From Bacteroidales bacterium (GTDB lineage: Bacteria > Bacteroidota > Bacteroidia > Bacteroidales > UBA12077): 39,755 bases of DNA. The DNA is taken from positions 1 to 39,755 of the forward strand of contig JAKSCO010000334.1 of NCBI GenBank assembly GCA_022360575.1, read 5' to 3'. The notes beneath the pieces are model-generated. The model saw nothing but the letters and a program-made list of their open reading frames with translations, was not told the DNA's origin and did no database searches. The translations under genes were made by a program, and so were the position numbers. Positions 7,215-19,313 of this stretch are shown piece by piece (position 1 is the stretch's first letter; each line of letters begins with the position of its first letter).

Positions 7215-9800
7215 TTATTCGGTAATATATTTTTGTTTTTTTGCAATACGTTTAATCTCATCTTCATCTGCCGCTCTTAATTTCAACAAGATATTGGCTA
7301 TGATTGATTCTAATACATTTTCTGATATGGTTAACATTGAAGCTATTTGCTGTTTATTTAAATCTTCGGCAAATAAATCAACTATTGATTGCTCTTTAAT
7401 AGTCAAAGAGTCTAAATTAGGCTCTTGGCTTTTTATCGACACTCCAAACTTTGACTTAAATTGAGGACAATAATAGATTTCGCCCTGATAAACATTTTTT
7501 ACAGCACATATAAGCTCAGTTATTTTCGAATTTTTCGAGACATATCCCATAACTCCCTTATTGACTAATTGATCCATAAACCAATTTTCGAGATACATAG
7601 TAAAAGCAATAACTTTTATATCTGGATATTGATTTTTAATTTCCTCGGACAACTCAATGCCATCCATCCCGGGCATAGAAATATCAGTAATAACAATATC
7701 AACATTTTGCTTTTTTAAAATTTTTAAGACCTCCATCCCGTTTTTAGCCATACCTACTACTTCGATATTTCTTTTTGTTTTAAACAACGACATTAAACCA
7801 AAAAGAGAGACATCGTGATCTTCGGCCAATACTATTCTTATTTTTCGATTAGTATTTACTACTTCATTATTAACAAGAGGAACAGAAGTGCTTATCAAAG
7901 AACTTTTATCCTTAAAATGAACTATTTCTATCTTACTTTTTTTGTTATTAAGTTGTTCTAACAAATAAGTATCTTCAAATAAGTTTTTATTGATTAAAAT
8001 ATCATCTAACTCGATCAATACATTTATTGAATTTGCATGCTGAACCAATTGTATACTTACGCTATTTGTCTTATTTAGACAAGAACTTATAACTTCGAGC
8101 TGCTCAATCAATATATATTTTAACATTTCTTCTTTGACGGATTCTATTTTTCTCCATTTATTCAGGGGGAAGAATGTTATATTGACATTAAAAAAGTCGT
8201 AGTATTCTATTATGTTACTAATTTTCTCTTTCAAATCAATATTCTTGTAAATATCAATAACCCCTCCGCCTTGAGGCTTACTTCGAGAATTTAAAATCCT
8301 ACTTGTATGAGACGTATTATATACGCTTTGTTGCTGTTTTATTACTAACTCTTTTTGTGCAATATTATTCTCTAATTGCTTATAAAATTCTTCTTCGTTT
8401 GTTTTCAAAAGCAGATCTCTTTTCGTTTTATTTCTTTTATTCGCCATATATATGAATAGGAAAGCAAAAAAGAAGATTACGATAAAAATTGAAAAATAAA
8501 ACATATAACAAGAAAAGAATGTTTTGTCTTTCTCATATTTCAATAAAAACCAGTAGTTATCAATAGTTAACGATAATTTCGAATCAATTTCGTTTGTATA
8601 TAAATCAATATAACTATTTTTTGCCTTTTTAAAACTAAATCTTAATTCTCCTGATAAGTCATTATCCAAAATAAATAACCCATCATCTTTCTTAAATAAG
8701 AATTCCTTTGTACTATCTTTATTGATATCAGCACAAAGGACATACTCTATAAAACAATTTTTATCTTTAAATGTATGCTTTTCTTGTATTTCTAAATATT
8801 TATTGAATTTCAATATTTTATATCCAGAAAATAAGTATAGCCCTGTACTATCATTATTTATTATTGATAAATACGTATTCTCTTTTATTTTCTTCTCTTC
8901 TAACTTAACTCCTTTCGGATTAAAAACTGTGAATTTATTCTCACTCTCTAAGTTGCTATTTAAAGCAAGAATGGTGTTTTGTTTTTTAAACTTATACTTC
9001 GTAATAGTTGTTTTCGAAGCATTTCCTGGAAACATTATTGGCTCAAACAAATATTCTAAATTGTTATTTAAACCAACAAACAATGATTGTTCTTGCTCTT
9101 TTTCCTGAGGTAACGATCGACTTGAAATATAAACCTCTAGCTTCCCATCTAAATCTAAATCCTCAACAATTATAGGCTTTAAAATTTTGACTCCAAGATC
9201 ATGCGATTTTTGTAATTTGCCAGTTTCTGTATCGTACAAAAATATTTTTTGCGATAACTCAGGAATCCCATTAACAAAAAAAAGAATTTCTTTATTTTCA
9301 TCTTGGTTCATGTTGTATGCCCCAATAACCTCAACATTAAAAGTAGAATTTGTTTTTGCTACATCAAACAACACTCGTTTTTTATACAAACTCTTTCGTT
9401 TTTCTTTATCTAATATATAAAGCACTAATGAATCATTAACTTGAGTAAACACAAAAATTTCTTTCAAGCTGTCATTGTCATAATCATTAAAACTTACATT
9501 TATACAGTGAAAGGTGTCTTCAACCAACTTCCACTTCCATTTTATATTATTTCTCTCATCACAAGCATTAATACGAAATGAGGAAGTTTCTTCTTTAATG
9601 AAGCATTTTATATTTTCGCTATTTCCATCAAAATTTAAATCAGAAAAGAACATTCTTGTATTGTCACTTAAAACAAGTTTATTTGAAACATCAATACTAT
9701 ACTTTGGTGTTTTTTCGATAAAAAAAAGAATAAGAGTAACAGTTAATACAAACCCTGCAATTGCAAGATATAATAAAATGTTTTGTTGCTTAATGTTCAC
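7215..9800 (-). CDS. Membrane-tethered sensor-response regulator: FG-GAP-like ectodomain, degenerate HATPase, receiver, LuxR-like C-terminus
   Basis: 861 aa in one uninterrupted frame. An N-terminal membrane helix (about 8-27) is followed by a periplasmic domain of about 400 residues. That domain carries five Asp/Asn-rich motifs of the FG-GAP/VCBS calcium-loop type (SDLNFDGNSE 53-62, NDYDNDSLKE 105-114, YNMNQDENKE 162-171, EDLDLDGKLE 213-222, ADINKDSTKE 357-366). A second helix spans 429-452. Next come a coiled stretch and a region shaped like a NarX-type HATPase domain (about 515-645) with no recognisable His box, N-box or Gly boxes. The receiver (about 652-770) is intact, with phospho-acceptor D706 in VITDISMPGMDG. 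The C-terminus (798-855) resembles a LuxR/NarL helix-turn-helix (LTIKEQSIVDLFA..LNKQQIASMLTIS) with poorly conserved recognition-helix positions. It looks like a NarX/NarL pair fused into one membrane protein whose kinase part has decayed. The signal sensed is unknown. Confidence 0.8.
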   Translation of the reverse strand: MNIKQQNILLYLAIAGFVLTVTLILFFIEKTPKYSIDVSNKLVLSDNTRMFFSDLNFDGNSENIKCFIKEETSSFRINACDERNNIKWKWKLVEDTFHCINVSFNDYDNDSLKEIFVFTQVNDSLVLYILDKEKRKSLYKKRVLFDVAKTNSTFNVEVIGAYNMNQDENKEILFFVNGIPELSQKIFLYDTETGKLQKSHDLGVKILKPIIVEDLDLDGKLEVYISSRSLPQEKEQEQSLFVGLNNNLEYLFEPIMFPGNASKTTITKYKFKKQNTILALNSNLESENKFTVFNPKGVKLEEKKIKENTYLSIINNDSTGLYLFSGYKILKFNKYLEIQEKHTFKDKNCFIEYVLCADINKDSTKEFLFKKDDGLFILDNDLSGELRFSFKKAKNSYIDLYTNEIDSKLSLTIDNYWFLLKYEKDKTFFSCYMFYFSIFIVIFFFAFLFIYMANKRNKTKRDLLLKTNEEEFYKQLENNIAQKELVIKQQQSVYNTSHTSRILNSRSKPQGGGVIDIYKNIDLKEKISNIIEYYDFFNVNITFFPLNKWRKIESVKEEMLKYILIEQLEVISSCLNKTNSVSIQLVQHANSINVLIELDDILINKNLFEDTYLLEQLNNKKSKIEIVHFKDKSSLISTSVPLVNNEVVNTNRKIRIVLAEDHDVSLFGLMSLFKTKRNIEVVGMAKNGMEVLKILKKQNVDIVITDISMPGMDGIELSEEIKNQYPDIKVIAFTMYLENWFMDQLVNKGVMGYVSKNSKITELICAVKNVYQGEIYYCPQFKSKFGVSIKSQEPNLDSLTIKEQSIVDLFAEDLNKQQIASMLTISENVLESIIANILLKLRAADEDEIKRIAKKQKYITE

Positions 9801-10074
9801 TTATTATTCGATTTCGTTTGAAAGATTTAATTTAATTATAAAAATTAAATTAGAAAAACTTTTATTTAAAATAAGTACGCATGCTATTTTACATCTAGAA
9901 TCAAGTCATTACATAGCAACAACATAACAAATCGATAATTCTAAAATATTTTTAAAACGATACATACAACAAAATAAAAACAACACTACATAATGGGTAA
10001 TAAAACATGATCTTTATATTCATTACTTAAACCCTATCAATAAAAAAAGTATTCTATTGTATCTTGACCCCCCT

Positions 10075-10860
10075 CTATTTTATCAAGTACTTATCTTTAC
10101 AAAAATTAGATGCTGTATCGCTTACCTGAAAAACAGAAACCATATCGATATAATAATATGCTATCTTATTATTTTTTATTTTTTGCCTTATATAATTCCG
10201 ATAGTTTGAATTATTTAAAGTTATCACATCGGTATTTAGATCATCATAAAAATTACCTATTGTAATATACTTTTCTCCTCCCCGAGCCCTAAAGGTATCA
10301 CACACTAGATACCAATAATCTCGTTCGCAAGCAATATTCAATGTATCGTATACAATTTGAGGTTTCAGGCTTAGGGCTTTTGCCGAAAAACGATCTTGTT
10401 CTTTATCGGTTGAAATATACATTCCTATTCGGTTTACAGCATAAGTAGAGTAAGATGCTATAGAAAAATAAAATTTGCAAACATACAAGCTACCTGTTTC
10501 TAGTGGTTTCTTCAGTTTTGTTTGTAAATACTCGCGATAGTCTAAAGCATTCTCTCTTTTTGTACAAAAAGGAGGACTTTCAATCATTACTATTCCTGCA
10601 TATGCATTACTATCAAGAGCTAACATATTTCCCATTACGTTATTAGGAACCCCAACCTGATACATAGCACAAGCATTAAAGTAATCTGTAGTTCCTCTTG
10701 TTGGGATATTCCAATATGGGATTAATTTTTTTATCGAATACATTGTTACTTCCTCCGGACATTCGTCAAACATTTCGAAGCTAGGATTAAAAACCAGATT
10801 CTGAGCTTTAGTATAAACCACAGCCCAAAGTATTATAACTATAATATTAACACTTCTCAT
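10075..10860 (-). CDS. Secreted protein with galactose-binding-like fold
   Basis: 261 aa. The signal peptide is residues 1-19, with cleavage near TKA-QN. The mature start NLVFNPSFE and later WNIPTRGTTDYFNAC resemble the carbohydrate- or galactose-binding-like N-terminal domain seen in many Bacteroidota surface proteins, where it usually precedes an OmpA domain. Here the OmpA part is absent and the domain stands alone. Several Cys (DECPEE, NACAM, PPFCTKR, ACERDYWYLVC) could form disulphides. Last gene of the six-gene leftward operon, 1 bp from its neighbour at 10862. No enzyme motif is seen. Confidence 0.65.
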   Translation of the reverse strand: MRSVNIIVIILWAVVYTKAQNLVFNPSFEMFDECPEEVTMYSIKKLIPYWNIPTRGTTDYFNACAMYQVGVPNNVMGNMLALDSNAYAGIVMIESPPFCTKRENALDYREYLQTKLKKPLETGSLYVCKFYFSIASYSTYAVNRIGMYISTDKEQDRFSAKALSLKPQIVYDTLNIACERDYWYLVCDTFRARGGEKYITIGNFYDDLNTDVITLNNSNYRNYIRQKIKNNKIAYYYIDMVSVFQVSDTASNFCKDKYLIK

Positions 10861-10861
10861 T

Positions 10862-11332
10862 TCAGAAACCCATTCTAGGAACTTTTCTCCAATAGATATT
10901 TACACCGGCACAGACTCTTAAATCAAAAGCATCTTTAACTTTTGCTTTTTCGGCCATTAATGTTATCTCGATAATCAGATTCTGAGTTTTATCTATAGTA
11001 AATCCTACAGATTCAACATAATCATCCTCTTGATTATCATATAAAATTTCTTTTGTATCGGCATTACTAATTACATAATGTATTGGATAATATCCATATT
11101 GAGTACACAAAACAATTTTATAATCTCTTTGCCCGTAAAAAACAGCTTTAAATGTTGTAGGTTTCTTTACTTCAATTAAGGCGCTTCGTGCCTGTCCGTA
11201 TGGTTCAAAACCGTCTACCCGATAAATTTTACAATCTCCTCTTCTATGAAAATTATTACAACGCTGTGCATAAGATACAGATCCAATTAATAGAGCTATT
11301 AGTAAAATCGATATTTTCTTATTGCAATTCAT
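10862..11332 (-). CDS. Small secreted protein of unknown family
   Basis: 156 aa. The signal peptide is residues 1-22 (cleavage near SYA-QR). The mature part begins with a Cys-containing RCNNFHRRGDCKIYR, then a beta-rich body (FKAVFYGQRDYKIVLCTQYGYYPIHYVI) and ends with a DLRVCAGVNIYW segment. Four Cys suggest two disulphides. It is packed between the lipoprotein and the galactose-binding-like gene in the kinase-ABC transporter operon, so a periplasmic or outer-membrane role with that system is inferred. I do not recognise the family. Confidence 0.6.
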   Translation of the reverse strand: MNCNKKISILLIALLIGSVSYAQRCNNFHRRGDCKIYRVDGFEPYGQARSALIEVKKPTTFKAVFYGQRDYKIVLCTQYGYYPIHYVISNADTKEILYDNQEDDYVESVGFTIDKTQNLIIEITLMAEKAKVKDAFDLRVCAGVNIYWRKVPRMGF

Positions 11333-11370
11333 AAATCTTATTTTTTATGAGTTTGTAATTAACTTATTGT

Positions 11371-12249
11371 TTATGCCTTATCCACAAACATCATTCTTAT
11401 ATCAATTATTTTTTCTTTTAATTTTAAGTAAACGTCTTCGGTAACAATAATTTCTTTCCCCCCTTCAATAATAATAAAGCAATCTTTGTCTTTTGTCACC
11501 TTAATATTTGTTTCGTCGTAAGAAAAATCATCAAATATTTTCTTTATTCCGGAAAGCTGGCTCAATACTGATTTTACATATACATCATCAGAATATTGTT
11601 GGGCAAATTCGTAATAGTTATCAAATACAAATTTTTGTTCAAGAACACGTTCTACAATATCTGCCGAATGTTTAAATGTTATATTATTAATAGCAAGATA
11701 AAGCGCTTCGATAATAGCTCCTGTTGAAACTAAAACCAGAAGATTATTTTGATCCGAATTTTCTAGTATCTGAGACATCTTATAATAAAGTTCTCGTGAG
11801 ATTTTATTCAAAGAATCTTTTATCAGTAAATTGGCATTAATTCGCTCAATGATGCCTTCGCTTACAACACCATAAAGATTAACCTTATCGGTTAATTCTT
11901 TAATTGTTTTCAAATAATCTAACTCATTAGCTGTATTATCAAACACACTTAAATAAGCAAAATCAGTAATATAAACACCTAGGTTTAATGCCTGAGATTT
12001 AACATCAATATAATTTACTGCATTATCAACAGAGTTTATATATTGAATATCTAAACGAATATCTGAGATAAAGATTTCTGCAAATATCTCGTCGGGTGCT
12101 GGAAGCATATAAACAACCTGCTCTTCGGTACTGATTACTGTACTTTCGCTGTTACTCTCATTAGTTTCTGATCTTTTATTGGATTTACATTGTACTAAAC
12201 CTAATATAATTAACAAACTATAAATAAGAAGTGATTTTATTTTCATCAA
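11371..12249 (-). CDS. Lipoprotein, paralogue of the secreted protein at 18483-19313
   Basis: 292 aa. Lipoprotein signal peptide with lipobox LVQC (acylated Cys21), a Ser/Glu/Asn-rich linker, then an alpha-helical domain. It aligns along its length with the product of 18483-19313: YMLPAPDEIFAEI against YLYPTPNEINEII, SQALNLGVYITDFAYLSVF against SISLNLGIYLADMAYSAFF, LVLVSTGAIIEALYLAINN against MSLIVAGAYIECLYIALNL, and VLEQKFVFDN against VAKQKFAFNN. No enzymatic motif is seen. It lies 20 bp downstream of the ABC transporter gene, so an accessory or ligand-binding role is plausible but unproven. Confidence 0.75.
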   Translation of the reverse strand: MMKIKSLLIYSLLIILGLVQCKSNKRSETNESNSESTVISTEEQVVYMLPAPDEIFAEIFISDIRLDIQYINSVDNAVNYIDVKSQALNLGVYITDFAYLSVFDNTANELDYLKTIKELTDKVNLYGVVSEGIIERINANLLIKDSLNKISRELYYKMSQILENSDQNNLLVLVSTGAIIEALYLAINNITFKHSADIVERVLEQKFVFDNYYEFAQQYSDDVYVKSVLSQLSGIKKIFDDFSYDETNIKVTKDKDCFIIIEGGKEIIVTEDVYLKLKEKIIDIRMMFVDKA

Positions 12250-12269
12250 TACAAATTTTAAGGTTTACA

Positions 12270-15200
12270 CTAATATTTTTTATAAAAAATAATACACAGA
12301 AAAAGACTACTAAGTATAGTCATTAGCCAAATCGCAATTACATTATAAGTAATAGTATCAACAAGCCTGTTTCCGACTTTTTTTTCGGAAGCAAAAAAAT
12401 GAGCTCGCCCAAATGAAGAATCGGAAATATGATAAATAGGATCTATCTTCTGAATTATCTCTCTTGATGTTTTTACATAAGGAACAAAGCTTTGTCGTTT
12501 TAAAACAAGTTCAGATAAGCTTTTTACCGAATGTAAATTCTTAAACTCATTATAGCTATCAACACCTCCAAATTTATTTACCAGAGCATAGGTTATACTA
12601 TCTTTCTTATATGAAATTTGACTAATTATATTTGTAAATTCTGCATTTAATTTATTTAAATAGTTTTCGATTAATATTAAATCTGAATACGATAAAGAAC
12701 TAAAACGAATAGTATTTAGCTTTACAAATGGATATAAGGTATTTAATTTTTCTATCTCGTTTTTTAAAAAAGTATAAACTTGCTTTTTCTTTTGTGAATT
12801 TTCATCTTTTAAAATCTCGAATAAATCTCGAATAGCCTTTTTTAGTTCAGGTATTAGGAACAATACATTAAATCGGGCACGACTATCTTGTTTGTCTAGG
12901 TTAAAATAAAAATCTTGATATTTATTATCTCTAAACTGGGCAACAATTAGCGATTCGTAGGCCCAACGCGAAGCCATTATATCGCCCACAAGTGGAACAT
13001 ATTTTTTATTTACAACTTTATGGTTTAATTTATCATAACTAATCATTGTGCCGCTTAAAAGAATTTGAGGCACAATAAAAAGAGGAACTAGAATATAAAT
13101 TACAATAACCGAATTAAATATTGTCGAGATTAATAAACCTGTGATATTTGCAAAACAAAAAGTAGAGAAAAGAATTATCCAAAAAAGGAATAGCATACCT
13201 TTTATCTCTAAAATCCAGTTTCCGAACAAAACATATAAAAAAGCCTGTAAAGCACTTAACCCAAATAAAAATGAAATTTTAGATCTTAAATAACTTATTT
13301 TATTCAATCGTAAAAAAGCCTCTCTTTTTAATATCTTTCGATCTCGATAAATATCTTCGGCACTAATTATTAAACCAACAAATAATGCAACTATAACCCC
13401 CATAAATAAATATGCAGGAATATTGTCGTTACCAAACAGCACATAACTCTCGAAATCGTGATTCGATTGCTTACATAAAAAAGATAATATAACAGATAGT
13501 ACTGGTGTTATTAAAATAGAGAGTAATACATATTGCCTATTAGCTATTTTTGAAAGTAAATTTCGTTCAAAAAAGATCATATATTGCTTTAAGAAGTTTG
13601 GCTTTTTAAACCTCACTTTAGGAATATCTGTTTGGGTATCTTGCTCAGAAAATTTTAACGATAATTTTGTCTTATAATGTTTATGCCACTCTTGTGGGAG
13701 TACTTTTCGTAAGTTTATAAACTCCCCTTTTTCGTTTACCTTTCGTTCTTCAAGGATTTTAAATATCGACTCTGAATTTATATTTCCACACCTTTGGCAA
13801 GTATCAGCAAAAGTGATAAAACTTTCGCCCAAATTATTAAAGTACGAAATCGATTCGGCAGGATTTCCGAAGTAAACAGGATAACCTTCTTTGTCAAGCA
13901 AAAGTATTTTATCGAATAGTTTAAACACTTCAGACGAAGGTTGATGAATATTAATTACCACTATTTTTCCGCTTAAAGCCTGTTTCGAAAGCAACTGCAT
14001 AATTTCTTCCGAATCGGACGACGACAAACCCGAAGTAGGCTCATCAGCAAATAAGATATGCGGCTCGCGAATAAGCTCTAATGCTATATTTAATCTTTTG
14101 CGCTGTCCTCCGCTAATAAATTTATTTAAGGGCGATCCTACCTTTAAATCTTTTACTTCATATAAATCAAGACTTTTTAATAAATCCTCAACTTTATTAA
14201 TTATTTCTATTTTACTTAAAGTTCCAAAACAAAGTCGAGCATTTAAGAATAAATTTCTAAAAACACTAAGCTCTTCAATCAACAAATCATCTTGAGGAAT
14301 ATAGCCTATTAGCCCATCTAGTTTCGATTTGTAGCGATTTACATTATATGCATTTACTTTTACCATTCCTTTTTGAGGGATAGTATTTCCGTTTAATAAA
14401 TTTAGCAATGTCGACTTTCCTACTCCACTTCGGCCAATAACACCAACCAATTGCCCCGATTCTACAAAAAGACTTAAGTTGTGAATTCCGTTGTTACTAT
14501 TTTTAAAATGAAAATCGATATTATTGGCACTAAAATTAATCTGCGTTAAATTTTCAGATAAAAACTGGCGCAATATCTCATTGTAATATATTACAAGCTG
14601 GTTATCACAACGTATAGCGCTGCCTTTGGGTAGAAAATATATATTTTCGGGAAAAACAATTTGTTCGTTAAGAGTTATATTATCATAGCCTCTGTAATAA
14701 AATATTATAAGATTAACACTGCGAATAATATAAAACAACAACTGTCCGTTTAAACTTTGTCTTTCGAGAATTCTAATATCAGAACTAAACGAATTTGCTT
14801 TGCTAATTAACAATAAGTTTTCTTTACTCTGTAAGTTATAAAGTTTCTCTTCGATAAACGATTTACAATCGATATACTCTTTGTAATTAATGTTTAGTTC
14901 GACCGATATTTGTTTTAATAAATCCGATAAATGTATTTCGCTGTCGTTTCTGAAAGGATAGCGTAATAAAAACTTATTAAACAAAAGCAATCTTATTAGT
15001 AAAATAAACCGCTCTAGCTTGGGTAATTTATCGTTTACCTCGTTTGTTTTTTGTATTAATAACCTACTTAATTTTTTATTATCGTAAGATTGATATTCAT
15101 CAAAATTCTTATCGAACCTAATTAAGAACTCTTTTATTGCATACTGATCAAATTCTTTGCGCAAAAACAACGAAATAAAATCCTTTACATTTACTCGTGG

Positions 15201-15272
15201 TATGGTCGAGTAAATATTTGATATTATCGAAAACAAATCGATTATATATTCAATTAAGATTTTATTCATCAA
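12270..15272 (-). CDS. ABCG-like ABC transporter, ATPase and permease fused, with TerB-like N-terminal domain
   Basis: 1000 aa. Residues about 1-150 are helical and resemble the TerB-like domain found in front of some Bacteroidota ABC proteins. The ATPase domain (about 250-475) has Walker A GRSGVGKST (280-288), Q-loop region IGYIPQDD, signature SGGQRKRL (387-394), Walker B ILFADEP and the H-loop NIHQPSSE. The order, ATPase before membrane domain, is that of ABCG half-transporters. A Cys pair, TCQRCG (492-495), follows the ATPase. Membrane helices lie at about 580-600, 617-637, 664-684, 693-716, 719-741 and 975-997. About 230 residues between the last two form a large, probably periplasmic, helical domain. 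It should homodimerise and is probably an exporter. It is 7 bp from the receiver-pseudokinase gene upstream. Confidence 0.85.
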   Translation of the reverse strand: MMNKILIEYIIDLFSIISNIYSTIPRVNVKDFISLFLRKEFDQYAIKEFLIRFDKNFDEYQSYDNKKLSRLLIQKTNEVNDKLPKLERFILLIRLLLFNKFLLRYPFRNDSEIHLSDLLKQISVELNINYKEYIDCKSFIEEKLYNLQSKENLLLISKANSFSSDIRILERQSLNGQLLFYIIRSVNLIIFYYRGYDNITLNEQIVFPENIYFLPKGSAIRCDNQLVIYYNEILRQFLSENLTQINFSANNIDFHFKNSNNGIHNLSLFVESGQLVGVIGRSGVGKSTLLNLLNGNTIPQKGMVKVNAYNVNRYKSKLDGLIGYIPQDDLLIEELSVFRNLFLNARLCFGTLSKIEIINKVEDLLKSLDLYEVKDLKVGSPLNKFISGGQRKRLNIALELIREPHILFADEPTSGLSSSDSEEIMQLLSKQALSGKIVVINIHQPSSEVFKLFDKILLLDKEGYPVYFGNPAESISYFNNLGESFITFADTCQRCGNINSESIFKILEERKVNEKGEFINLRKVLPQEWHKHYKTKLSLKFSEQDTQTDIPKVRFKKPNFLKQYMIFFERNLLSKIANRQYVLLSILITPVLSVILSFLCKQSNHDFESYVLFGNDNIPAYLFMGVIVALFVGLIISAEDIYRDRKILKREAFLRLNKISYLRSKISFLFGLSALQAFLYVLFGNWILEIKGMLFLFWIILFSTFCFANITGLLISTIFNSVIVIYILVPLFIVPQILLSGTMISYDKLNHKVVNKKYVPLVGDIMASRWAYESLIVAQFRDNKYQDFYFNLDKQDSRARFNVLFLIPELKKAIRDLFEILKDENSQKKKQVYTFLKNEIEKLNTLYPFVKLNTIRFSSLSYSDLILIENYLNKLNAEFTNIISQISYKKDSITYALVNKFGGVDSYNEFKNLHSVKSLSELVLKRQSFVPYVKTSREIIQKIDPIYHISDSSFGRAHFFASEKKVGNRLVDTITYNVIAIWLMTILSSLFLCIIFYKKY

Positions 15273-15279
15273 GCATTTT

Positions 15280-16380
15280 TTAATCCATATCTTTTAATAT
15301 CAATTCAACAAGCAAGCCCTCTTCTTTATTAGTTAAATTTATATCTCCATTAAAAAGATTCACGATTTGATTTACTACAAATAAATTTAAACCCCAATTA
15401 CTTACAATTTCAGAATCTGGCGATATCTGAAACGGATTTAACAAAAACTCATCTGGATTTTCGATCAATACATCTCCATAAGAAAAGAAACTACACTTTA
15501 CCTGCTCATCTTCTGTAGCAACAGTAACTTCCATTTTTGTTGCTTCGGCAACTCCCGAAATAGTATCCTCCATAATGTATCCAAAACACTTATACAATAA
15601 ATCACGATCGCTATTTATAATAATACTAGAATCTATATCTTCGATTATCTCGATATGCTCTTTCAATACCTTATTTGTTAAGTTTAAATACGAATATTGT
15701 AGCAACTCTTTAATATTTATCGGAGTAATATTTAATTTATATTCACCAGAGCTTATCTGTGTTGATAAAATAGTTGTATTTGCAAAATTATCGAGTCTAT
15801 ATACCGAATCCTGAAGTGTTTCTAATAGTTCTTTTATTGTCGACGAAAACTCTTGATTTCGGAGCAAATGCAATGCCCCTGAAATTCCAGTTAGTGGAGT
15901 TTTTATTTCATTACTAATCATATTTAAGAACTGCGATTTTATATTATTCAAACTCTCGAGTTCTTTTTGCATCCTTATTAACTTCGAATCGTTTTCTATT
16001 TCTTTTATAGCACGCTTAATAACAATAGACAATTGGTTAAGAAAACCTCCAGTTTTTACCAGATAATCTTTTGCTCCTAATTTCATTATATCTACAGCAA
16101 TACGCTCATCGCCAAAACCTGTCATAAAAACAAACGGCAGCTCAAGATTTTCTTCTTTTAGCTGTTGTAATAATTCTTTCCCGGTAATATCGCTCAATTT
16201 ATAGTCAAGCAACATCAGAAAAATATCTTTGCTTTTGATGTGTTCAATAGCTTCGGCCCCCGAAGCAGCAGTAATTATATTGTAGTCATCATCTTCGAGT
16301 TTTGTTTTTATCAAATATTGCAATCCCATATCATCCTCAACAACAAGTATCGTATGATTAATATCTGTATTTAACCCCAT
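15280..16380 (-). CDS. Response regulator receiver fused to a histidine pseudokinase
   Basis: 366 aa. The receiver (residues about 8-125) is complete: ED at 15-17, phospho-acceptor D59 in LLDYKLSD, T87 and K109. A helix follows, then a DHp-like dimerisation region, KSQFLNMISNEIKTPLTGI, in which the His of the usual SHEIRTPL box is Asn (N157). The C-terminal part has the length of an HATPase domain, but the N-box (LLYKCFGYIMEDTISG) and G1 box are lost and only a GLNLFVVNQIVNLFNGDI remnant of the GLGL region remains. It can probably receive phosphate but not autophosphorylate, and so may act as a dimeric effector or adaptor. Between the active kinase gene (64 bp gap) and the ABC transporter gene (7 bp gap). 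Confidence 0.85.
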   Translation of the reverse strand: MGLNTDINHTILVVEDDMGLQYLIKTKLEDDDYNIITAASGAEAIEHIKSKDIFLMLLDYKLSDITGKELLQQLKEENLELPFVFMTGFGDERIAVDIMKLGAKDYLVKTGGFLNQLSIVIKRAIKEIENDSKLIRMQKELESLNNIKSQFLNMISNEIKTPLTGISGALHLLRNQEFSSTIKELLETLQDSVYRLDNFANTTILSTQISSGEYKLNITPINIKELLQYSYLNLTNKVLKEHIEIIEDIDSSIIINSDRDLLYKCFGYIMEDTISGVAEATKMEVTVATEDEQVKCSFFSYGDVLIENPDEFLLNPFQISPDSEIVSNWGLNLFVVNQIVNLFNGDINLTNKEEGLLVELILKDMD

Positions 16381-16444
16381 AGTCGTTAGATAAATAGTTT
16401 ATTAAATTTAAGAAACTTTAAACAAAGCTCACAATTTAGCCAAT

Positions 16445-18091
16445 TCATTTTTCGAGGATAACATAAAACTTACTGCCTGTATTTACTTTAGAATTTACCG
16501 TAATTTTTCCTCCAACTTGCTCAATTGTTTTCTTTATTAGAGCCAACCCCATTCCTTCGCCATTTTGTATCTCGGGATTTACTCTGTAAAAAACATCAAA
16601 GATCTTATTTATTTGCTGTTCAGAAATCCCTACTCCATTATCGGCAATACAATAAACAACATTATTTTCGTCGATTGTTGAACTTATAGTAATTACTGAT
16701 TTTCGGTTTTGAGCTCTATATTTTATTGCATTATCAATTAAATTCGAAAAAACTTGATTTATCGAAACCTCATCAGTAAAACAAGATTCTAAATTGCCAA
16801 GCTCTATTTTTATACCTTGCTGCTTTATTGTATACTCAAATGTTTTAATAACATTACGCACCAAAATATTCATATCAACATTTACTTTATTGATTGCTGC
16901 TTGCCCCAAACGCGAAAGTTTTAGTAATGCAATTAATAGTTTATCTATTTTTTGCCCACTAACTTTTATAAAATTCATAATTTGAGGAATATCTCGCTCT
17001 AATAGCAATTTGATATCATCTTTATTATTAATAGCATTTCTACTATCAAATATTTTATCTGATAACTTATTCAGTGCTTTAAACATTTCGTCGCTAAAAC
17101 CTAAAATATTTACTACTGGCGAACGAATATCATGCGAAGTAACATATACAACCTGTTCTAGCTCCTTATTTTTATTAACAATATCCTGATTTAGTTTTTT
17201 TATTCGTTCTTCTGCTTTATTTCGGCTAAATGCATGTCCTATTATCTCGGTTATTGTTCTTAATATTGCTAAATCTTCGACTGTCCACTTATCTTTCTCG
17301 TAAATATTATTAATTGTTAAAAATCCCGATAACTCAGAATCTGAATAAAGCGGAATAGCTAAAAAATTAAAAACCTTATATCTTTCAAAAAGAGCCTTTT
17401 CGAATTTTGCTTCATCAGGCAACTCTCTGATGTCATCATAAAATATAAAATCAGAACTTTTAAGTATATCTAAACTATATTGTAAAAAATCTTTATCTAC
17501 CTCTTCTATTTTCATTCTCTCAATAGCACTTTCGCTAAACTGCTCGTTAGTTAATCTCACTTTATTGTTCTGAATAAATAACATTGTATAACGCTCGGCA
17601 TTAATAATATTTTTAAGCTCTTTTAATGTGTTATCAAGTTTTTTACTAAAATTTTCGGGAGAAATAAATTGTGTTGATATTTTAACTATCATTTTTTCGA
17701 TAGATATCCGTTTCTGAAGTTTCTCGTTTATCTGCTCTTGCTCTGTAACATCAAAAAACATTGTTATAACCCCTACTATCTCGCCTTCATCTGTTTTCCA
17801 CGGAATAGACGATACATTTATTATTCGAGTCGTATTATCTTTTGTGTGTATCTGAAGTTTATATTTCGAAATCTTTTTATTTTTCGATAATATTTTCTCT
17901 GCATCTTCGGCTAATATCAAATTGGTTATTTTTTCGCCCTGTATCTCGGGTACATTTGATTTAAACATACTAGCATAAGATTGATTGCAAAACTGAATTT
18001 TCCCTTTCAGATCAATCACAGCTAAGGCCTCGTGCATATTCTTTATTAGCTTATACTGATCTGTAAATTGTAAGTTTATAGTATCTTTCAT
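16445..18091 (-). CDS. PAS-GAF sensor histidine kinase
   Basis: 548 aa, with no membrane helix, so probably cytoplasmic. A PAS domain (about 11-115, ending VITMFFDVTEQEQ) is followed by a GAF domain (about 130-290), a short coiled coil and a HisKA domain with phospho-acceptor H320 in TSHDIRSPV. A complete HATPase domain follows: N-box N454 in NLIDNAIKY, DNGVG 484-488, and GEGMGLAL 511-518. This is the only intact kinase in the cluster and the natural phosphodonor for the receiver encoded just downstream. First gene of the six-gene leftward operon, divergent from 18483-19313 across a 391-bp spacer. Confidence 0.9.
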   Translation of the reverse strand: MKDTINLQFTDQYKLIKNMHEALAVIDLKGKIQFCNQSYASMFKSNVPEIQGEKITNLILAEDAEKILSKNKKISKYKLQIHTKDNTTRIINVSSIPWKTDEGEIVGVITMFFDVTEQEQINEKLQKRISIEKMIVKISTQFISPENFSKKLDNTLKELKNIINAERYTMLFIQNNKVRLTNEQFSESAIERMKIEEVDKDFLQYSLDILKSSDFIFYDDIRELPDEAKFEKALFERYKVFNFLAIPLYSDSELSGFLTINNIYEKDKWTVEDLAILRTITEIIGHAFSRNKAEERIKKLNQDIVNKNKELEQVVYVTSHDIRSPVVNILGFSDEMFKALNKLSDKIFDSRNAINNKDDIKLLLERDIPQIMNFIKVSGQKIDKLLIALLKLSRLGQAAINKVNVDMNILVRNVIKTFEYTIKQQGIKIELGNLESCFTDEVSINQVFSNLIDNAIKYRAQNRKSVITISSTIDENNVVYCIADNGVGISEQQINKIFDVFYRVNPEIQNGEGMGLALIKKTIEQVGGKITVNSKVNTGSKFYVILEK

Positions 18092-18482
18092 CCGCTTATA
18101 AGTTGTAGCCTGCCCAAAATTTTATTCACAGCTCAAATCTTATCACACATGCATTCATTTATTTCAGACATAACTGATTTTTCTTTTTAATTAGCTCGTA
18201 TTTACTGTCACTTTCGCCGAGTAGATATCAACAATTATTATATTTAATACGTAAGTTAACAATTATTTAAGTATATCACTTTATCATTCGGACAATAATA
18301 TAATTTTTATAAATCGCAGAAATATGGCTTAAGCCTATGTGCTTTTTTATATCTAAAATCAAATCTTTATATAACAAATATAGAATGCTAAAATATTTTT
18401 AACCCGAGACTTATAATATGCCTAAATAATTTTTGATTTTTTCTTTTTACATATTAAATTTAATAGAAAAAGCAAAAAATAG
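18092..18482. other. 391-bp divergent intergenic region
   Basis: AT-rich spacer between the kinase operon (leftward) and the paralogue gene at 18483 (rightward); it should hold both promoters. I found no perfect TTTG-N19-TAnnTTTG. TAATTTTTG near 18426 is a poor -7 candidate for the rightward gene. No ORF, RNA gene or clear inverted repeat is visible. Confidence 0.4.
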
Positions 18483-19313
18483 ATGAACCACAAGTATTTA
18501 ATTTTATGTTTTTTATTTTTCCCGATTTTTGTTTTTTCTCAACATGCAAGCAATTGTTATTATCTATATCCTACTCCAAATGAAATTAACGAAATCATTA
18601 AAAAAGAAGATTTAGCTTTTAACGAATCATTATTAAATCCCGAGAATAAAGTTTCTAATTACACCAACGATCAATCTATAAGTCTGAATTTAGGAATTTA
18701 TCTTGCCGATATGGCTTACTCAGCTTTTTTTGGGCAAATACATAAATTTAAAAGCTATCTGGGAGTTGTAAAGCAATTAACAAACCATCTGCTTATTTCG
18801 CCCGAAACAAAAGAAGAATTAATTAGTAATTTCATTAAACACTCAAACGATTTCGACTCTATATATCAGTTTACACACGATTATTATTATAGAATGATTA
18901 ACGAGCTAGAGCAAAACTACAGTGCCAGCGCCATGAGTTTAATTGTTGCCGGAGCTTATATCGAGTGTCTTTACATTGCATTAAATCTAACTAAATACGA
19001 AGAAGATAGCTCGTTAATACAAATTGTGGCTAAACAAAAATTTGCTTTCAACAATTTAATTAATTGCTGCGAATTTAAATCCCGAAACAAAGAAATCACA
19101 TCTATATTAAACGATTTATTAGAGATACAAGATATTTATAATAATGTAAGTATTCAGAAAGTTGAGATTTTACGAGTTGAACGCACCAACGACGAAAAAA
19201 TAACTCTCAGAGGAGGTCCTATACTAAAAATGAAACGTAAGGAATTTTACAAACTCAAAAAAACGATCTCGAGAGTCAGAAAAAAAATTGTCGAAACCAA
19301 TTATTCGATTTAA
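18483..19313 (+). CDS. Secreted paralogue of the lipoprotein at 11371-12249
   Basis: 276 aa. A cleavable signal peptide (residues 1-19, ending VFS-QH) replaces the lipobox of its relative. The mature helical domain matches the lipoprotein over its whole length, with the best blocks at YLYPTPNEINEII, LNLGIYLADMAY and IVAGAYIECLYIALN. The C-terminus is more basic (KMKRKEFYKLKKTISRVRKK). It is divergent from the sensor kinase gene, so the two paralogues bracket the kinase-pseudokinase-transporter genes. Function unknown. The pair probably arose by duplication and may form a periplasmic pair, one anchored and one soluble. Confidence 0.7.
   Translation: MNHKYLILCFLFFPIFVFSQHASNCYYLYPTPNEINEIIKKEDLAFNESLLNPENKVSNYTNDQSISLNLGIYLADMAYSAFFGQIHKFKSYLGVVKQLTNHLLISPETKEELISNFIKHSNDFDSIYQFTHDYYYRMINELEQNYSASAMSLIVAGAYIECLYIALNLTKYEEDSSLIQIVAKQKFAFNNLINCCEFKSRNKEITSILNDLLEIQDIYNNVSIQKVEILRVERTNDEKITLRGGPILKMKRKEFYKLKKTISRVRKKIVETNYSI

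Follow-up and report, generated by a model that had tools for sequence, protein, structure and literature searches.

The stretch of DNA analyzed here, 39,755 nucleotides of a Bacteroidales bacterium (contig JAKSCO010000334.1 of assembly GCA_022360575.1, referred to below as the window, and corresponding to contig C243 of the 3.6 Mb draft genome), carries a gene cluster that may encode an ABCG-type transporter gated by phosphorylation. In the proposed reading, to which we assign a probability of about 0.5, a receiver fused to a dead histidine kinase (receiver–pseudo-histidine-kinase, REC-pHK) would dock on a TerB-like domain at the front of the transporter. This reading is based on the loss of the acceptor histidine from the REC-pHK proteins encoded directly before such transporters, and on the occurrence of SiaC, an unrelated phospho-switch protein, at this position in related clusters.

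All seven open reading frames (ORFs) described in an earlier note on this DNA were found, six of them tightly spaced on the minus strand within positions 10075–18091 and one, divergent, on the plus strand (18483–19313). The gaps between the six, read from the kinase gene to the last gene, were confirmed as 64, 7, 20, 38 and 1 bp. The first gene (16445–18091) encodes a 548-aa PAS-GAF histidine kinase, as had been claimed, with the Pfam domains PAS_9 (residues 22–117), GAF (152–287) and HATPase_c (440–546). It is predicted to be active from these domains and from a His motif (TSHDIRSP) and ATP-binding boxes recognized by eye; the Pfam HisKA match is weak (E 0.018). It is followed by the genes of REC-pHK (366 aa; 15280–16380), an ABCG-type half-transporter (1000 aa, or 999 from the ATG; 12270–15272), a lipoprotein termed LIPO (11371–12249) and two secreted proteins, E156 and F261. 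For two of the listed TTG starts, the true start is probably the ATG immediately after. The NCBIfam matches shown for the proteins of this cassette were all below cut-off.

Loss of the acceptor histidine in REC-pHK

The REC-pHK of the window combines a receiver domain (residues 11–110; 16051–16350, minus strand; Response_reg, E 3e-21), in which the phosphorylatable Asp59 is kept, with a pseudokinase part (residues ~143–366; 15283–15954, minus strand; HisKA, E 1e-11) made up of a DHp-like (dimerization and histidine phosphotransfer) helix pair and a degenerate ATPase. The receiver–pseudokinase fusion read earlier from the sequence is thus borne out: the acceptor His is replaced by Asn (N157), and the N-box and G1 stretches appear degenerate.

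The same substitution pattern was observed in other genomes. In the 12 REC-pHK proteins first read at position −1 (directly before the transporter), the acid pair at residues 15–16, D59, T87 and K109 are all kept. With three further loci (L201, L202 and L220, with Gln, Asn and Thr, respectively), the acceptor His is absent from all 15 proteins at this position, being replaced by Asn (7), Gln (6) or Thr (2), and D59 is present in all 15. These loci include some redundancy (L117 and L203 carry the same REC-pHK, and those of L125 and L201 are 88% identical). As a control, other proteins with the same helix encoded in the same loci were inspected: 16 out of 17 keep the acceptor His, and the lone exception, a weakly matched protein, has Tyr at this position. 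The only REC-kinase positioned after a transporter (L185) also keeps the His.

A ranking of REC-pHK matches in 59 genomes (the window's own genome and its relatives), with a cut-off of E 1e-50 and at most 32 scored candidates from each genome, yielded 26 proteins in two tiers. The 12 best (364–600 bits) have no acceptor His and are all found at a transporter, whereas the other 14 (184–314 bits) keep it. For 11 of the 12, the position directly at the transporter is given by the coordinates; in the twelfth case (G018), at the end of a contig, the neighbor is an ORF matching the first 93–97 residues of the transporter with 31–34% identity. As far as can be judged from sequence, loss of the acceptor His tracks the transporter among the matches seen. 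As would be expected of a coupled pair, the REC-pHK ORF runs 8 bp into the transporter ORF in four close relatives, and overlaps of 11 and 25 bp are seen in two others. In loci L054–L057, relatives of the kinase (823–952 aa; 619–650 bits) are encoded directly upstream of the REC-pHK gene.

Two switch proteins at one position

The gene at −1 was read for 95 transporter copies. It encodes REC-pHK in 12 cases, SiaC in 14 (including L177 and L180), LIPO in 33 and E156 in 12. In a quick tree of 92 transporter rows, built without bootstrap, the copies preceded by REC-pHK fall into a 13-row group (SH-like approximate likelihood ratio test, SH-aLRT, 99) and those preceded by SiaC into a 15-row group (SH-aLRT 100). 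The thirteenth row of the former (L060) is a sequence starting inside the transporter, with the upstream gene out of view.

SiaC (PF09345) was detected in the same 38 of the 59 genomes as the transporter and LIPO, and in 18 of 296 genomes drawn across the phylum, including all 7 that contain the transporter. At least 57 of 132 transporter rows (one G009 fragment row omitted) have SiaC within 1.5 kb, and for at least 54 of the 70 best SiaC rows a transporter is found at this distance or less; these counts cover, in addition to the transporter rows, at least 150 LIPO rows and the first 120 SiaC rows. In 80 loci from named genomes, 16 of the 22 SiaC ORFs lie within 1.5 kb of a transporter, a flank amounting to ~218 kb of 1.28 Mb.

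Nine SiaC matches were found in the window genome, none of them on the window contig. One is encoded beside the C195 copy of the transporter (locus L052; SiaC match, E 1.2e-42), where a DUF6272 (SiaB-type) protein and SiaC lead into the transporter. Another case is the C99 copy, in which a SiaC-family gene directly follows the transporter. In distant genomes, the order SiaA-SiaB-SiaC-transporter-LIPO (L210) and a SiaB-SiaC pair facing the transporter (L209) were observed. The SiaC of L052 matches the solved DUF1987 protein 6kko (E 5.5e-17), which we take to be Pseudomonas SiaC. The aligned stretch of 6kko contains LLYLNTSSIK, the peptide printed for SiaC in PMC7647112. According to the same paper, Pseudomonas SiaC is phosphorylated at Thr68; the equivalent residue is Thr in 11 of 12 SiaC proteins checked at −1, and Ile in L171. 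According to PMC8457831, the output enzyme of Pseudomonas SiaC is SiaD; when unphosphorylated, SiaC binds to the helical stalk of this enzyme, and phosphorylation prevents the binding.

Locus L052 also contains, upstream of the SiaB-SiaC pair and the transporter (8561–14177), genes for two CheR proteins, CheB, a GAF protein and a PAS/GAF-SpoIIE phosphatase, i.e. chemotaxis-type methylation enzymes beside a threonine phospho-switch.

Conservation of the transporter–LIPO pair

The window genome contains four transporters of this type; three full-length homologues besides that of the window (C99, C178 and C195) share 39–41% identity, and each has a LIPO-family gene adjacent or one gene away. LIPO and the transporter occur in the same 38 of the 59 genomes (transporter threshold E 1e-60 or better) and in the same 7 of the 296 genomes drawn across the phylum, own genome included (two transporter candidates scored per genome). 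When named genomes were scanned with the membrane domain, the best 80 loci were retained, among them loci of Reichenbachiella, Ekhidna, Marinifilum, Labilibaculum and Carboxylicivirga. In these loci, picked on the transporter alone, LIPO lies within 1.5 kb of 64 of 81 transporters, and of 50 of the 58 that have at least 1.5 kb of sequence on both sides. The adjacency count was taken from L117–L196 only, since L050–L069 had been picked on the lipoprotein. Redundant loci were also noted (L066 and L162 carry identical transporters; L118/L119/L121 and L141/L146 are near copies). In the relatives, genes were called by simple ORF picking.

The comparison of gene neighborhoods across genomes, which had been named as the check that could refute the idea of a single cassette, found the co-location conserved. 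Since the cassette recurs in other genomes, it is more than a chance arrangement. Its constant part is the transporter–LIPO pair. At least two kinds of input are associated with this pair, the two-component part and SiaC-type threonine phospho-switching. A literature search (titles and the beginnings of abstracts, mostly without subscription journals) returned nothing on the transporter–LIPO family or on SiaC beside an ABC transporter; the family names DUF1987 and DUF6272, along with two long NCBI family names, turned up in a single paper.

Two long-branch transporters (L061, 2728–5754; L062, 10921–13947) are accompanied by LIPO, E156 and F261 and are not preceded by REC-pHK; a divergent receiver-type gene is found in its place.

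Domain organization of the transporter

The structure of the transporter was modeled with AlphaFold2 from 60 sequences (mean predicted local distance difference test score, pLDDT, 88.8). The model matches ABCG transporters, with the nucleotide-binding domain (NBD) followed by a transmembrane domain of ABCG fold. Together with the Pfam matches (ABC_tran and ABC2_membrane), this agrees with the previous description of a 1000-aa ABCG-like protein. Walker A, the signature, D410-E411 and His443 are invariant in the 60-row alignment.

All domains are encoded on the minus strand. The NBD (residues 246–480; 13833–14537) is preceded by a front comprising (i) a TerB-like helical domain (residues 1–146; 14835–15272; helical part at residues 4–140 of the model), the proposed docking site of the switch proteins, and (ii) an all-beta domain (residues 146–245; 14538–14837; strands modeled at 153–222), which is possibly FHA-like. 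Pfam TerB (PF05099) matches the helical front in 26 of 30 family members (best 2e-10), which supports, at the level of the family, the TerB-like front postulated earlier, but no TerB match was obtained with the window's own copy. In a comparison with the PDB, the profile reaches TerB only at E 0.76. FHA matches to the beta part were obtained with 2 of 30 members and are weak (best E 0.034); the window copy gave none.

Downstream of the NBD lies a CxxCG linker motif (residues 492–496; 13785–13799). CxxC is present at this site in 72 of 74 full-length family members and is the only CxxC listed per chain; it is possibly a metal or redox site common to the dimer. The membrane core (residues 560–785; 12918–13595) contains TM1–TM5 and a re-entrant helix, and is followed by a long helical outer domain located before TM6 (residues 786–972; 12357–12917), with modeled helices at 786–820, 827–844 and 862–901. 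Transmembrane (TM) segments were assigned from the model helices alone, and on this basis the TM5–TM6 stretch (~residues 739–972) agrees with the 230-residue outer loop noticed earlier.

The transporters of the REC-pHK and SiaC clades were compared domain by domain. Between the clades, mean identity is 0.54 in both the NBD and the membrane domain, and drops to 0.24 in the beta part and to 0.21 in both the TerB-like part and the outer domain. Within the clades, the TerB-like part is 0.59 (SiaC) and 0.39 (REC-pHK) identical. Both the inner front and the outer domain, where changing partners would be contacted, thus differ between the clades, but both are fast-changing family-wide.

In addition, distant transporters of 1201–1309 aa were found in L204–L207, kin only at the phylum level, with ~200 extra residues between TerB and the NBD that gave no Pfam match at E 0.05.

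Proposed mechanism and alternative explanations

Since unrelated SiaC occupies the same place in related clusters, the transporter is likely to be controlled directly by phosphorylation, and not only via its expression. In the proposed mechanism, the histidine kinase would phosphorylate the receiver of REC-pHK, the dead kinase part of which would dock on the TerB-like front of the transporter; SiaC would dock on the same domain in its own clade. Binding of the switch protein, in either its phosphorylated or its unphosphorylated state, would then gate the ATPase activity of the transporter. The ATP-driven motor would act via the outer domain on periplasmic LIPO and E156, which may receive or pass on cargo or force. 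Given the ABCG fold, a lipid or other hydrophobic envelope component is the first guess for the cargo. The earlier note had left open whether the phosphorelay acts on the transporter or on another protein; an output directed at the transporter is favored because a switch protein that does not bind DNA sits at −1.

Several observations weigh against this mechanism. The pairing of the kinase with the receiver rests on gene order, and the binding, phosphorylation and transport steps are all predicted. In 45 of the 95 transporter copies it is LIPO or E156, and neither switch protein, that is encoded at −1; in these copies, the front domain has to function with no switch protein at this position. 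The remaining row of the SiaC group (L160) has no SiaC ORF anywhere in its locus, SiaC is present without the transporter in 11 of the 296 phylum genomes, and 8 of the 58 well-flanked transporters have no LIPO nearby. The co-occurrence counts are not phylogenetically independent, the genomes being mutually related. Moreover, in the set of copies preceded by the lipoprotein, the TerB-like part is only 0.33 identical within the set, compared with 0.62 for the membrane domain. The front is thus fast-changing throughout the family, and its divergence between the two clades may reflect weak constraint. Finally, a gene with a LuxR-type output lies downstream of the cassette, and a transcriptional branch is possible.

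The strongest alternative, although one we consider unlikely, is that the protein transports no substrate, and that ATP hydrolysis moves the outer domain, which pushes on LIPO and E156 so that they act on the cell wall or the outer membrane, as in FtsEX or MacB. The constancy of the lipoprotein partner would fit such mechanotransmission, as would the stretch preceding TM6, modeled with helices of 35 and 40 residues; in the listed neighborhoods, where not every gene was annotated, no recurrent biosynthesis gene was noticed beside the transporter. On the other hand, the membrane domain and NBD align with transporting ABCG proteins over ~550 residues. Force transmission of this kind could be combined with the gating half of the proposed mechanism, since the data resolve the input side rather than the output.

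A second explanation, with a lower probability, assumes transcriptional wiring: the kinase and REC-pHK would act on another regulator, the pseudokinase serving as a scaffold or decoy in the phosphorelay, and the transporter would merely be a co-expressed target. A candidate regulator is encoded by the gene mentioned above (7215–9800, minus strand; 861 aa; Response_reg and GerE above cut-off, FG-GAP weak), which is co-directional with the cassette, lies 274 bp downstream of it and whose membership of it is uncertain. The presence of this gene qualifies the earlier statement that no DNA-binding output domain is encoded in the operon. LuxR-output genes also lie near the cassette in L197 and L198, and several further kinase genes surround it in L054–L057. 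However, in L197 two opposite-strand genes intervene, and a shared run of genes continues to a uracil-DNA glycosylase gene in L197, L198 and the window, so the proximity of the LuxR gene looks like plain synteny. No LuxR-output gene was found after F261 in L056, L058 and L059, and loss of the acceptor His tracks the transporter. The order of parts in the 7215–9800 protein is a weak FG-GAP-like front, a membrane segment and a degenerate kinase (both by eye), a receiver and LuxR.

The least probable explanation, reverse signaling, in which the transporter would sense cargo and report to the kinase through REC-pHK, has a precedent in the BceAB-type transporters that report to their kinases (BceAB-BceS) and would fit the tight pairing of the transporter with signaling genes, but it is improbable, as the kinase carries its own PAS and GAF domains with no membrane domain by Pfam, and the transporter's neighbor is a receiver-type protein or SiaC, not the kinase.

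A broader form of the docking mechanism, to which we give somewhat less than even odds, is that phospho-switches are interchangeable in a Bacteroidota-wide family of ABCG motors, with the TerB-like front serving all of them as a universal docking port (REC-pHK in one clade, SiaC in another), and that this port drives pseudokinase evolution. Bacterial signaling is mostly regarded as ending in transcription or in second messengers. In this family, the position before the transporter is shared by an apparent two-component output protein and a threonine phospho-switch protein, so that only two proteins and one domain are needed for a direct test of whether an envelope transporter is gated post-translationally. 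If the mechanism is true, the histidine–aspartate and Ser/Thr signaling worlds plug into the same transporter. The 12 dead REC-pHK proteins found beside 14 live relatives in 59 genomes also constitute a natural experiment in the origin of a pseudokinase.

Secreted proteins and flanking regions

The part of the cassette that follows the transporter encodes, as predicted earlier, a lipoprotein and two secreted proteins. LIPO has a lipobox Cys within LVQC (by eye), and its AlphaFold2 model (mean pLDDT 87) is mostly helical, with no clear relative among solved structures. The family has six members in the window genome, and a profile search with a threshold of E 0.001 scored 1667 homologues. The best 120 of the 1667 contain no Pfam domain and are annotated as hypothetical proteins or without a name; the cassette thus provides a first context for this large lipoprotein family.

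E156 (10862–11332, minus strand), a small protein with a signal peptide (by eye) and a conserved Cys, is the third member of the envelope part, and its family is found beside LIPO in many loci. The secreted protein F261 (10075–10860, minus strand) was seen, among the loci read, in the window, L054–L059, L117, L061 and L062. The divergent secreted protein (18483–19313, plus strand) is a LIPO paralogue, as had been suggested (88 bits, 28% identity), without the lipobox Cys; it is also present beside the cassette in L054–L057, L061 and L062. No Pfam match above cut-off was obtained for LIPO, E156, F261 or this paralogue.

In L054 (18151–19956), the divergent paralogue is followed by two E156 paralogues, forming a mirror copy of the envelope part. 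LIPO-E156 pairs without a transporter of the family in the stretch read were detected in three loci (L053, 9354–10744; L064, 9387–10774; L065, 9534–10905), of which one belongs to the genome of the window.

The spacer between the divergent genes (18092–18482) was scanned for promoters. It contains no TTG/TAnnTTTG pair (gap 18–22). A lone −7-like sequence, TATATTTG, presumably a −7 element of the Bacteroidota type, is present at 18382 on the minus strand, 283 bp before the kinase start, with no upstream TTG at the scanned spacing. The cassette itself contains one TTG/TAnnTTTG pair, on the plus strand inside the transporter gene. Sigma-70-like matches numbered 72, compared to 61.0 (standard deviation 8.2) in shuffled sequences.

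Comparison with known systems

Rv1747 of Mycobacterium resembles the window transporter in being an ABCG-subfamily half-transporter with N-terminal regulatory domains and an adjacent phospho-signaling gene. In PMC3908365 and PMC5549992, Rv1747 is described as an FHA-ABCG exporter whose activity is modulated by phosphorylation, with PknF as the kinase. The family described here differs in that (i) its front is TerB-like and any FHA-like domain is weak at best, (ii) its neighbor is a REC-pseudokinase or SiaC and not a PknF-type kinase, and (iii) a lipoprotein is its constant partner and its outer domain is long. Compared with eukaryotic ABCG1, ABCG2, ABCG5/8, ABCG16 and ABCG25, it has an additional 245-residue front and an outer helical insertion of ~190 residues; the CxxCG linker motif was surveyed in the window family only.

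REC-pHK gives the same profile match as REC-HisKA-HATPase fusions, and the 14 further matches in the 59 genomes, which keep the acceptor His, are proteins of this kind; it differs from them in the loss of this residue from all 15 copies that precede a transporter.

The sister copy C195 (L052) resembles the SiaABCD system of Pseudomonas aeruginosa in containing SiaC, a DUF6272 protein in the place of SiaB and a PAS/GAF-SpoIIE phosphatase. A scan of the ten window genes and of seven genes of L052 gave no GGDEF cyclase domain; where the Pseudomonas system ends with the diguanylate cyclase SiaD, the last gene of this copy encodes an ABCG-type transporter. In the window copy, REC-pHK takes the place held by SiaC, which is itself present in the sister copies C195 and C99.

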